From: Amphibalanus amphitrite
Taxonomy: Eukaryota > Arthropoda > Thecostraca > Balanomorpha > Balanidae
DNA: 64,000 nucleotides
Assembly (NCBI RefSeq): GCF_019059575.1
Contig: NW_024881561.1
Location: 909,001-973,000 of the forward strand
Direction of reading: 5' to 3'
Within the stretch, counting starts at the first letter, position 1; every line of letters begins with the position of its first letter. The translations under genes were made by a program, and so were the position numbers. The notes beneath the pieces are model-generated. The model was not told the origin of the DNA, did not search any database, and saw only the letters and a program-made list of their open reading frames with translations. Of this stretch, positions 4,354 to 9,007 are shown piece after piece.

Positions 4354-5693
4354 TACTTTCCTTGTTTTTAAGAATTCCGGAATTAGATACCCGAGGGAGC
4401 AAAGAGGGAGCAAGTTGCCACGCTGATTTAATACCTCATAGTCGAAAGGTGGGCTACTAGAACCAAAAATTGCTGTGTTTGTAAATAAATAAGTGATTTG
4501 AGGGCAAAAAATGCCCGGATTTAAACTTCTAAAATTATTTTGAACATAAAATATTTCAGTTTGAGGGATGTTAAGGCCTCTAAGGGTAGGTACTTTTTAG
4601 GTATCAAATAAGTTCCTCTGCGAAAGTTCCGTCGTGAAAACGGCCAAAGCGTACGTTTGAAAGAATTTCGGTCATTTTTCATCTTGGAGCAATATTGGGG
4701 TCACTGGAGGTCATCAAAGGTCAAATTTTGCCAAATGTCGTTATATTTTTCAGAAAACATGCATTTAGGTATCTCAGGAACTATGATAGCTAGAAAAACG
4801 CATGGAAAAGCAATCGATAGCTTATGAACTCTTCTTTCGATAAGGTTATAATCAAAATTGACCTCAGGTCAACGGTTTAGCCTACAGAGGGCAAAAACTC
4901 CAAAAATAGCTGTTTTTACGAAAAGTGTTTTTGACAATAACTTTTGACTAGAAAAAGTCACGACATTTCTATTGCCAGAATCGTGTTCCTCTCGCCGAGA
5001 CGCGTCGAATGAACTATAATTTGACCTTGAAAGGTCAACTTGAAAATTTGACCTCAGGTCAAGGTCATGACCTGACCGGAAAAGGTCATGTTGCATATCA
5101 GTCGATGCGTCTCGGCAAGACAAACACAATTAGACCATCCCCAGCGTTCTATCTGTTTCCAATCTCGAGTTATTGGCAAAAAACTGTTTGTAGCCTCAAA
5201 TGACCTCGGATGACCTTTCTAGAGGCTATCAGCAAAAAAGACACCTTGGTCGTCACGGGCTGTCCAAATTATTGTGATTCTGAAATATTTGGACTGTTTC
5301 TATGCGTACACACGGATCTAGAGGCATTTTCATTTTTCTCCATTGACTTCCTAATGGTAAGGTCACGCCACTGACCTGACCTTAGGTCACGGATATAAAA
5401 AATCCGAGATATACAAATTGTAGGCGCTCATAACATCATGCAATCCACCAAGTTTAAAACCTTTCTGACAAACACTGCAGGCTGGGCATGATTGCGAACT
5501 TTTTTAGGCCTGGTCAGTTAACTTCACCTGGTGACCTGACCTGACATGACCTGGGGTCAAATATTCACACATTGTCCAAAATTGATGTACAAAAAGCTAT
5601 GCCAAACGGCGCGGCGCTACGCGCCGCGGTTTTTTATTTATACGCAAAAAACGCGACAGGATGGTAACATATGCGCCCCCACTGGGGCGAAGG
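4354..5693. repeat. Decayed AGGTCA-rich repeat DNA
   Basis: This stretch has many GACCT/AGGTC motifs and phrases shared with the TTAA elements elsewhere, for example the line around GAGATATACAA near 5410 and a CGCTACGCGCCG hairpin near 5610. It ends at TTAA (5694-5697) with the reverse-complement terminus CCTTCGCCCC. The same terminus type occurs at about 56155-56163, so this looks like the right end of another TTAA-inserting family. I could not find the left end. Confidence 0.45.
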
Positions 5694-5697
5694 TTAA

Positions 5698-6835
5698 CCC
5701 GCGCGGGGCTGAGGTCTCCAGCCGAACGCGCGGGGCTGGGGGGGGGGGAGTAAATTTACCCCCCCCCCCCTGTTATCTCCCGAACTAATGGTCCGATTTG
5801 AAAAATTCAAACGCCAATCGAAAAATCTCATCACGAACAACTAAAAACATGTACTTGATTTAAAGTTTGAGGTCAAGGTCAAGGTCAGGTCAAGGGTACA
5901 AATTGCAAGTTTCTACAATCTACAGTATCGGCCTTGCACCGTAGTTGCCGAAGAATGGAGTCATGGACTGAGACTGATTGCCCAAAACGTGTTCTTAGGC
6001 TACCAAGACAATATTCGTTGCATACAATATCATTCAGAGGTCAAGGTCAAGGTCAGGTCAGGTCAGGTCAGGTCACCAAAAACAAAATATAGAAAAGGGC
6101 ATGTGCGACACATGTTTTATGGGTCATTATATTCATAGAATTCAATAGGCACACTCAATAAGTGATATGGACCACCTCTGAATGAATTTCAGGTCGAGGT
6201 CAGGTCAAGGTCAGGTCAAGTGAGGTCAAATTTTGAAGTTGGTTGTTAAGGCCTAAAAGGTGTCTATCTGATGCAGTTTTTCACGGCGAATCGAATGGTG
6301 CTATTTTTGTTTCCGTACGAGGTCTAGAACTTCCGAAAAAATCATTTTTCAAAAAATTTATGTGTTGTGACGTCATAAAATTTTAAATAACTCCCACATT
6401 TTTGAACCGATTCTTCTAAAAATTGGTATGTAGGTGCACATGGACCACTTCTCTGACATATATTCCGGTTTTTTAAGAAAAAAAAATTGGGCCAAAATCA
6501 AAAATTTTCAAAAAACCGAGACAGCCATTTGATAGACAAAGTAGAATCACGTAGGTATAACCTTTTTTGTTACGTCTTGATTCCCTCAAAAATGAAGATG
6601 TTAGCGGCGTTTGAAATTTTGCCGTTTTTTAGGCGAAAATGGCGAACATGACGTCACTAAAACGTAATTTTCCCAACAAATTTCCGAAGGATTTCGCTCA
6701 AATTTTCAGGTAACGTGTCAAATTGATGTAAAAAAAAGGTACTGAATGTTTGGTGGCGCTATGCGCCGCCGTTTTGAGATATTGCAAAAATTCGCGAGGG
6801 GGGTAAAATTTACCCCCCCCCCAGCCCCGCGCGGG
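5698..6835. mobile_element. TTAA-flanked element, CCCGCGCGGGGC terminus (copy 1)
   Basis: Termini CCCGCGCGGGGCTG and its reverse complement are flanked by TTAA at 5694-5697 and 6836-6839. The interior has poly-G/poly-C patches beside the termini, an AGGTC pentamer run near 6032-6075, and full CREs at 6368-6375 and 6649-6656. A second copy lies at 19299-20463 in the opposite orientation and is close to identical in long blocks. No coding capacity was seen. TTAA targeting and a CCC start suit a piggyBac-like MITE, by family knowledge only. Confidence 0.8.
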
Positions 6836-6839
6836 TTAA

Positions 6840-7844
6840 CTGCCCACCTCCGGCGTTGGGTGGCGTGGAGTGGGTCATACGGTGCAAGCGGTGCAGGTGT
6901 GATCGAGTATGAGGACTGACTGGTCCCGGAGATAAAAAGCTGAGAAATGTAGACACTGCCTGGACAGTTAGTAATGGTGCGTACTGCGTAGACATTGTTA
7001 TTTGTTTTTTGTTTTGTTGGGTTAGGCCCTTTCGGTCGACAAGACCATTGCAGAGCCGGAAGGATGATAGGAATTAGGGGGAGACATTGGTCTGGGCAGG
7101 CACCCTAGTGAGTCGCCGGGGCTGAGCCCGTCCAGAGGACAGGCCACCCAGCCCCAAGGCACTCACTGCACCCGGCTACGGGGTGCGCTCCCTCGGGAGC
7201 AGCGGTGCCGCTCCAAGGGAGCAGCCCGCATGAGATAAAGTTGCCTGTCCAGCCCGGAGGGGGTTGCGGCGTGGAGGAGAAGGATTTCAGTATCCTGAGG
7301 ATAGAAGCACGGATAGGTGATGACACATTGTTATTGTGTTTGTACAATGTGGGCCGGACCGCTGTGGTCCATGTGGTCCCATGAGGCAGCGCTGCGGTTC
7401 TGCGGTGGTCTGTCCGCCACTGACCGCTATCTGCCGAGGGGCCACTTGCTGTCCCCCCTCCCCCCCCCCCAGTTCCGGTGGACTGGGGCTGACCGGATGC
7501 GCCTCCGTTTGCTTTCTTTCGGCGCACGATATACGCCGGCGGCGCGTCCGGTGGCGGCGATTCGCGGCACCCGGTACCCGGCGCCGGCCTCGGCCGTTCC
7601 ACGAACCGCCACCGACGAAAGCGGCGCGTGGAGGTGCCGCTCCGTGACCCCGCACGGCCCACGGGGGGACGGATACGCCGGCTCTGTCCCGTCCTAACGG
7701 TGGCCAAACATAGAATGGACCGTGACTGATACATATTGATGAAATCAGTGCTCAGGTTCAGAGGACACGCCATATTTTCGCTGTCTTGTCGGTGCAGGAA
7801 CATTGGACGTTCCCCGGGGTGCGTCTTGCACCACCAAGGCACAC
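6840..7844. other. jun upstream flank, CpG-rich, no gene called
   Basis: The region becomes GC-rich from about 7080. A 245-residue minus-strand frame (7105-7842) is open here, as are overlapping frames on the plus strand. None shows a recognisable domain, and composition explains them. The segment lies directly upstream of the jun core promoter, so distal regulatory sequence is the more likely content. A C-rich tract lies at about 7451-7470. Confidence 0.5.
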
Positions 7845-7850
7845 CATGTG

Positions 7851-7858
7851 TGACGTCA
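7851..7858. promoter_or_regulatory. Full CRE palindrome upstream of jun (distal)
   Basis: TGACGTCA within TGTGACGTCACA. This is a consensus site for CREB/ATF and Jun-ATF dimers. It sits about 160 bases upstream of the predicted jun start site and exactly 40 bases from a second identical site. Confidence 0.75.
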
Positions 7859-7890
7859 CATGCCCGTTAGCCAGCCGTTCGCGCGGCTGG

Positions 7891-7898
7891 TGACGTCA
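7891..7898. promoter_or_regulatory. Full CRE palindrome upstream of jun (proximal)
   Basis: TGACGTCA, 20 bases upstream of the CCAAT box. Together with 7851-7858 it forms a pair spaced 40 bases apart, roughly four helical turns. Autoregulation by Jun/ATF dimers is the obvious inference. Confidence 0.75.
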
Positions 7899-7917
7899 CG
7901 GATCGCCTCACCGCCGA

Positions 7918-7983
7918 CCAATGGCAGCGCCGAACGATGACGAATCCGGCTATTTTTGGTCGGATTACATCACTTGTATAAAG
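7918..7983 (+). promoter_or_regulatory. jun core promoter: CCAAT, TRE-like, MEF2-like, TATA
   Basis: In order: CCAAT (7918-7922), 15 bases, TGACGAAT (7938-7945), 4 bases, CTATTTTTGG (7950-7959), TTACATCA (7965-7972), TATAAAG (7977-7983). From memory, human c-JUN has CCAAT at -91 to -87, TGACATCA at -71 to -64 and CTATTTTTAG at -59 to -50, which are the same gaps of 15 and 4. CTATTTTTGG is one base from MEF2 and from a CArG box. Transposing the human numbering puts +1 near 8009. That agrees with the TATA box and with the TCAGA initiator-like word at 8008-8012. Confidence 0.85.
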
Positions 7984-8003
7984 CGCGCCAAGCGGCGGCC
8001 GGG

Positions 8004-8010
8004 TGAGTCA
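8004..8010. promoter_or_regulatory. AP-1 site (TRE) at the predicted jun start site
   Basis: TGAGTCA is the consensus AP-1 element and overlaps the predicted transcription start. With the two CREs, TGACGAAT and TTACATCA it makes five bZIP-type sites within 160 bases, which suggests positive or negative autoregulation. Other initiator-like words, TCAGTG at 8051 and TCAGTC at 8099, are alternative starts. Confidence 0.65.
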
Positions 8011-8194
8011 GAGGGGTATAGTGGCGCGCGGAGGACGGCGGTTGGAGCGCTCAGTGAACGTGGGAGGTGTGTATACCAGACACCGACGGAGCCAGCAGTC
8101 AGTCGCGCTCCGGACCGAGCCGAGGGGGGACGTGCGCAGCAGCAGCTGCTTCTCAAACAACGCCACGAGCGTGCCGCGGCCGGCTCGCCCTGCG
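8010..8194 (+). other. Predicted jun 5' UTR
   Basis: About 185 GC-rich bases between the predicted start site and the ATG. There is no upstream ATG. The jun frame stays open without a stop back to about 8003, so a non-AUG N-terminal extension of up to about 64 residues cannot be excluded. Homology to Jun begins only at the METSLYG start, so I take this as leader. Confidence 0.6.
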
Positions 8195-9007
8195 ATGGAA
8201 ACCTCGCTGTATGGGGACCAGGACTACTCGGTCTACCACCCGCCCCAGATGGACGTGCAGCAGCTGAAGAAGCGCATGACGCTCGACCTGGCGGACGCGC
8301 GGCCCGGGAAGCGCCAGCGCACCGACCCGCTGCTCACCTCGCCCGACGTCAACATGCTGAAGCTGGCCTCGCCCGAGCTGGAGCGGTTCATCACGCAGCA
8401 CGGCCTGGCCACTACGCCGACTCCGGGGAACGCGGCGCTGAGCAGCGTGTTCACCAGCATCGCGCGCCCGCCCACCGAGGAGCAGGAGAACTACGCACGC
8501 GGCTTCGTGGACGCGCTGCACCACCTGAAGCAGCAGGAGCAGCTGGACGCCGGACAGTACGGCGCCGACGCCTCGCCCGTCTACACCACGCTCGAGTCGA
8601 GCCACGGGGCGGCGGCGGCGGCGGCGGTGAGCACGGCGCCGTGCTCGCTGCCCGGCCAGTACTACGGTCTGCCGGCCGGCGTGCAAATCAAGGAGGAGCC
8701 GCAGACGGTGCCTTCCGTGTCGTCGCACGCCTCCAGCAGCCCGCAGCCGCCCAGCCCCGTCGACATGGCCGAGCAGGAGCGCATCAAACTCGAGCGCAAG
8801 AGGCTGCGCAACCGGATAGCCGCCACCAAGTGCCGCAAGAGGAAGTTGGAGCGGATCGCGCGACTCGAGGAGCGCGTGCGTCAGATCAAGAGTGAGAACA
8901 GCGAGCTGGCGGCGGTGGCCGGCCGGCTGCGCGAGCAGGTGATGGCGCTGAAGAAGGAGGTGCAGCAGCACACGCAGAACGGCTGCCAGATCCTGCAGCC
9001 GCACTGA
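8195..9007 (+). CDS. jun: Transcription factor Jun (AP-1 subunit), intronless
   Basis: A 270-residue nuclear bZIP factor that dimerises with Fos/ATF partners and binds TRE/CRE sites downstream of JNK. Visible features: a delta-type JNK docking segment ([11 protein letters not shown], 24-34); JNK sites S49 in LLTSPD and S59 in KLASPEL, plus the TTPTP cluster at 73-77; a poly-Ala run near 139-144; KEEPQTVP at 166-173, which includes the lysine that is a SUMO site in c-Jun; and Ser-Pro motifs at 182 and 187. The basic region is 200-217, with the redox cysteine at C213. The zipper heptads are L224, I231, L238, L245, L252 and H259, so Ile replaces the second leucine. The ATG at 8195 is the first ATG after the predicted start site and has G at -3 and +4. 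It is slightly shorter than vertebrate c-Jun (about 330 residues), mainly in the middle. Confidence 0.97.

Follow-up and report, generated by a model that had tools for sequence, protein, structure and literature searches.

The jun gene that lies in the window, a stretch of 64,000 nucleotides of the Amphibalanus amphitrite genome, very likely has a real and constrained core promoter in which short site words are held at fixed spacing; the main new evidence for this is a second jun gene in the same genome, which has the identical spacing. The gene downstream of the array of sites is jun, a member of the Jun family of AP-1 proteins. Its open reading frame matches both the N-terminal Jun domain (Pfam PF03957, 6e-25) and the bZIP domain (bZIP_1, PF00170, 1.6e-14), each above the cut-off, and the top PDB chains for the bZIP region are those of JunD and c-Jun. 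As read from the genomic sequence the gene is intronless, both domains being found inside the one open frame.

An earlier note on this DNA had described CCAAT, TGACGAAT and CTATTTTTGG upstream of jun, in this order and separated by gaps of 15 and 4 bases, and every one of these words was read at the place given for it (Table 1). The gene identity, as established from the Pfam and PDB matches, and the layout common to both jun genes also bear out its description of the region as a jun core promoter. Furthermore, it had proposed that a TATA box and an initiator word place the transcription start within a base or two of the position expected from human numbering; when that numbering is applied as quoted, with CTATTTTTAG starting at -59, position +1 falls on 8009, and the A of the TCAG word is at 8010. 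The note did not mention a perfect TGAGTCA, an AP-1 word that overlaps this presumed start. In the window the ATGs at 7937 and 8195 have no other between them, and the same is true of the ATGs at 728 and 1018 of L002, the locus of the second jun gene; this leaves ATG-free leaders of 185 and 217 bases respectively, which fit a start near 8010. The word TTACATCA, which is named as an ATF site in the available part of PMC3256215, is absent from the upstream region of the second gene (L002, 1-1100).

Table 1. Features of the window jun gene and its promoter, with the positions of the corresponding sites in the locus of the second jun gene
Feature	Window position	Strand	Second jun gene (L002)	Remarks
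Distal CRE, TGACGTCA	7851..7858	+	650	Read in the sequence; offset from CTATTTT start -99 in the window, -91 in the second gene
Proximal CRE, TGACGTCA	7891..7898	+		27 bases (start to start) ahead of CCAAT in both jun genes
CCAAT box	7918..7922	+	709-713	Present in 4 of 4 Jun places
CRE/TRE half-site, TGACGAAT within CGATGACGAATCCG	7938..7945	+	729-736	Identical in both jun genes
MEF2-like site, CTATTTTTGG	7950..7959	+	741-750	One mismatch from CTATTTTTAG; CTATTTTCAG in the second gene, also one mismatch
ATF/CRE-like site, TTACATCA	7965..7972	+		Window gene only
TATA box, TATAAA	7977..7982	+	768	TATAGC in the second gene; 27 bases past CTATTTT start in both
AP-1 site, TGAGTCA	8004..8010	+	795-801	Overlaps TCA of the presumed initiator; 54 bases past CTATTTT start in both
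Presumed 5' leader	8010..8194	+		No ATG
jun coding sequence	8195..9007	+		270 aa, single open frame

Searching the genome (807.6 Mb in 2,644 contigs) for the Jun family gave four Jun places, with all four candidates scored: the window gene on C64 and, as a copy, on C153, together with a second jun gene on C803 and C1011 (loci L002 and L003), the latter pair having 33 differences in 3,192 positions. They seem to be two genes, each on two haplotypes. Over 237 aligned residues the two proteins have 163 in common, and all four places carry CCAAT-15-TGACGAAT-4-CTATTTT. Measured from the start of CTATTTT, the offsets of CCAAT (-32), TGACGAAT (-12), TATA (+27) and TGAGTCA (+54) are equal in both genes, and the proximal CRE also keeps its place; the second gene differs in having CTATTTTCAG and TATAGC, in the absence of TTACATCA, and in a distal CRE that lies 8 bases nearer. 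When the two cores are compared ungapped, from the proximal CRE to just beyond TGAGTCA, 76 of 123 letters are identical, against a maximum of 55 at any offset when the region upstream in L002 was shuffled 1,000 times. The letters between the sites have mostly changed (36 of 79 kept), whereas 40 of the 44 site letters are identical, a figure that is favoured by the choice of some of them (CRE, TGAGTCA) after both genes had been seen to share them. Hence the equal offsets, together with the retention of site letters above that of other letters, indicate that the layout is constrained.

The divergence of the two jun genes is moderate, with a Ks of around 0.44 (NG86) and 62 of 89 fourfold sites identical. 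They are not independent, and the constraint demonstrated therefore spans only the time since their duplication. In the presumed haplotype pair the core has one difference in 93 positions, whereas the 421 positions upstream have 13 differences and a further 12 gap columns, and the 810 coding positions have 15 differences; an argument for selection from this comparison was dropped, as the differences are too few.

The earlier note had also held the gaps to be the same as those of human c-JUN, and for the shorter gap this is borne out in print: the TGACATCA-4-CTATTTTTAG spacing of mammalian Jun was confirmed by piecing together overlapping primers and probes from the available parts of several papers. 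These comprise a JUN-TSS primer, gggtgacatcatgggctatt, which includes GGGTGACATCATGGGCTATT (PMC5706420), and a JUN TSS primer, TTTAGGGGTTGACTGGTAGCAG (PMC11493277), the passages giving them not stating the species; GGTGACATCATGGGCTAT, given for Jun in a mouse study (PMC5563843); a rat c-Jun primer with the reverse complement TTGGGGTGACATCATGGGCTATTTT (PMC8002051); and the MEF2 probe core GGGCTATTTTTAGGGCC (PMC4339472 and PMC6470251). PMC6470251 cites Shin et al. 1999, probably the same work that PMC11508107 has among its references as a study of MEF2 at the promoter of c-jun. In addition, a mouse JUN primer, CAGAGTTGCACTGAGTGTGGC, in the available part of PMC9369155, agrees with TCAGAG, the presumed start word. 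For the 15-base gap, the other half of the claim, the human letters are presumed: we take human JUN (probably GenBank J04111) to have its CCAAT 15 bases ahead of TGACATCA, the letters up to TTGGGG being presumed likewise, and the first 17 letters of the human query used below, which covers -91 to -50, are of this kind.

The agreement in spacing extends only in part to the site words. The jun1 TRE, TGACATCA, is found in neither gene, as TGACGAAT shares only its TGAC and the second half is absent from both. Similarly, CTATTTTTGG and CTATTTTCAG each break the MEF2 consensus, CTAWWWWTAG as it appears in the available part of PMC3250504, at one position; the gap of 4 bases is present in both genes, with a full MEF2 site at its end in neither. 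On account of these two departures we have classed the region simply as the promoter of a jun gene, without assigning it to the c-JUN type.

The human query, with its presumed letters, had its best matches in the fetched DNA at the jun promoters, with 27 of 42 letters in the window and 25 of 42 in the second gene, the next place having 24; this ranking was over 477,466 positions, in which loci overlap and jun places are counted several times. None of 20,000 shuffles of the window promoter reached the score, and 5 of 20,000 did so for the second gene. With the query limited to the 28 printed letters, excluding CCAAT, the scores were 16 and 15, equalled by 400 and 619 of 5,000 shuffles respectively, and two further queries of printed letters found other places in the fetched DNA ranking first; the printed letters alone thus fail to single out the promoter. 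From -49 to the start, 12 of 53 letters match the presumed human sequence in each gene, which is about what chance would give, and the likeness is therefore confined to -91 to -50. Human JUN presumably has a TATA-like element and the start word TCAGAG at nearly the same distance as in the window, by eye one base nearer, so that an ungapped comparison cannot credit them.

The failure of the printed letters, the lack of ungapped similarity beyond -50, and the departures from human in the second half of TGACGAAT and in the MEF2 consensus, which recur in both genes, are what would be expected if the layout were constrained within this arthropod lineage and resembled human JUN independently, CCAAT, CRE half-sites and A/T-rich boxes, all of them frequent in inducible promoters, having fallen into the same spacing. 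However, both gaps equal the presumed human ones. When the motifs present in 7700-8194 are placed at random, such agreement has a P of 1.2e-5 for both gaps exactly, 3.7e-4 for both within 2 bases and 1.8e-3 within 5; moreover, the gene was compared with the same gene, rather than being chosen among all promoters. We consider an independent origin unlikely, albeit deserving of serious attention.

It is improbable that the presumed human CCAAT position is wrong, in which case the three-site match would shrink to TGAC-8-CTATTTTT. Its distance is not printed for JUN in the parts of the literature searched, but the coordinates of the earlier note and the letters used in the analysis both give 15, possibly not independently of each other, and the presumed TTGGGG adjoining TGACATCA is confirmed by the available rat primer.

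Across the genome there are 27 places with TGAC-N8-CTATTTTTRG, and 23 with its reversed control; a CCAAT 15 bases upstream accompanies two of the 27, both being the window jun gene on its two contigs. The shorter CCAAT-N15-TGAC-N8-CTA is overall at background level (53 places versus 48 in the control). Four of these 53 are the jun promoters, and none of the other 49 continues as CTATTTT within the fetched loci. Four of the eight places with TGACGAAT-N4-CTATTTT (two in the control) are likewise jun, and a script scan of the remaining four (C32, C632, C990 and C1150) found both the full array and CCAAT to be absent. Two related words, TGACGAATGTCGCTATTTTTGGG at 4803 of L046 (also in L028) and TGACGAATGTCACTATTTTTGTG at 4958 of L048, have no CCAAT 15 bases upstream, and their likeness to half of the jun array is due to chance or a repeat.

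By contrast with its 14 places in the reversed control, CRE-N19-CCAAT is found at 2,715 places in the genome. Among the 100 matches listed of these 2,715, 83 share one dispersed repeat beginning TGACGTCACAAATTCTAAGGGGG (e.g. G000:C1:96690), which carries perfect CRE words. As an abundant repeat family gives the same spacing, the distance from CRE to CCAAT is not specific by itself, and it was dropped as an additional argument. A scan of the window against Rfam gave no matches. Whilst the abundance of CRE-N19-CCAAT might suggest that the array arose by chance or belongs to a dispersed repeat, and does nothing for jun, that explanation is very improbable, for the repeat has other letters than jun from CRE to CCAAT, the second jun gene, with its array spaced identically, already contradicts it, and the whole array occurs with CTATTTTTRG at the window jun gene only and, in its CTATTTT form within the fetched loci, solely at jun.

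The surroundings of the locus have features of their own. A transposon-like insertion of 333 bases at 7003-7335 of the window is missing from the C153 copy, so that the two copies differ in it; it is flanked by ACATTGTTATT at 6992-7002 and 7325-7335 and lies roughly 0.7 to 1 kb upstream of where jun presumably starts. Many AGGTCA and TGACCT words are found in runs at 5350-6230, with similar runs in L046. For the cuticle proteins, all 150 scored candidates (705 in a first look) match Chitin_bind_4 (PF00379), which marks the animal as an arthropod.

The reading that we hold to be somewhat more likely than not is that CRE, CCAAT, the TGACG half-site, the CTATTTT box, TATA, and the initiator with its AP-1 word form a rigid module, that this is the promoter of an arthropod jun gene working as a switch, and that its spacing is shared with human JUN through common descent. 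We infer the bound factors and the start site, and the proposed working is read off the words at the sites. On CCAAT there would be a factor of the NF-Y type, and on the TGACG sites bZIP dimers of ATF, CREB or Jun; between them these would hold a MADS-box factor on CTATTTT beside TBP. The fixed register of the three kinds of factor next to TBP could then allow kinase signals to switch jun on fast. The AP-1 word lies on the presumed start at the same place in both genes, which suggests a direct feedback by Jun/Fos on the initiation of jun transcription, either activating or blocking it.

Judged from the letters, the chances that CCAAT-15-TGAC...-4-CTATTTTT is common to the arthropod and human JUN by descent within the Bilateria are about even to somewhat likely. 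The comparison is of two jun genes of one genome with mammalian letters, and descent from a bilaterian ancestor is hence unproven by it. A stronger proposal is evenly poised: that CCAAT-15-TGAC-8-CTATTTTT, and roughly also TATA and the start, would have been kept base-exact since before the protostome/deuterostome split, with selection acting on the spacing more than on the exact bZIP and MEF2 words. If descent is true, the spacing has outlived the exact words. Scans of the collections genome_contigs and viral_contigs, which are without eukaryotes, gave no jun relatives, and the array pattern had no matches in viral_contigs. Among the literature matches listed, for which a single search phrase was aimed at conservation, making this weak evidence, there was a chicken study and no title on conservation of the jun promoter beyond birds.

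Core promoters are generally regarded as changing rapidly from one phylum to the next. Were the shared descent true, very few other promoter layouts would be common to an arthropod and human down to the base, and a base-exact immediate-early layout running from arthropod to mammal would suggest a fixed assembly of proteins for which the sites may change, but not the distances between them; public genomes could then also be used to test how old the autoregulatory AP-1 circuit is. If the likeness to human is set aside, the rigid six-site promoter common to both arthropod jun genes, with its AP-1 word at the presumed start, is still a clear target for spacing experiments.

The known system closest to this arrangement is the proximal promoter of human and rodent c-JUN, a type marked by the binding of ATF2/Jun and MEF2 and by induction through stress kinases. 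It is alike in the gene that it serves, in the order of the three sites, in the 4-base gap as printed and probably in the 15-base gap. The window jun gene differs from it in having TGACGAAT in place of TGACATCA, and CTATTTTTGG (with CTATTTTCAG in the second gene) in place of CTATTTTTAG, and further in its TATAAA box, in the two perfect TGACGTCA words upstream, and in the TGAGTCA that lies on the presumed start.
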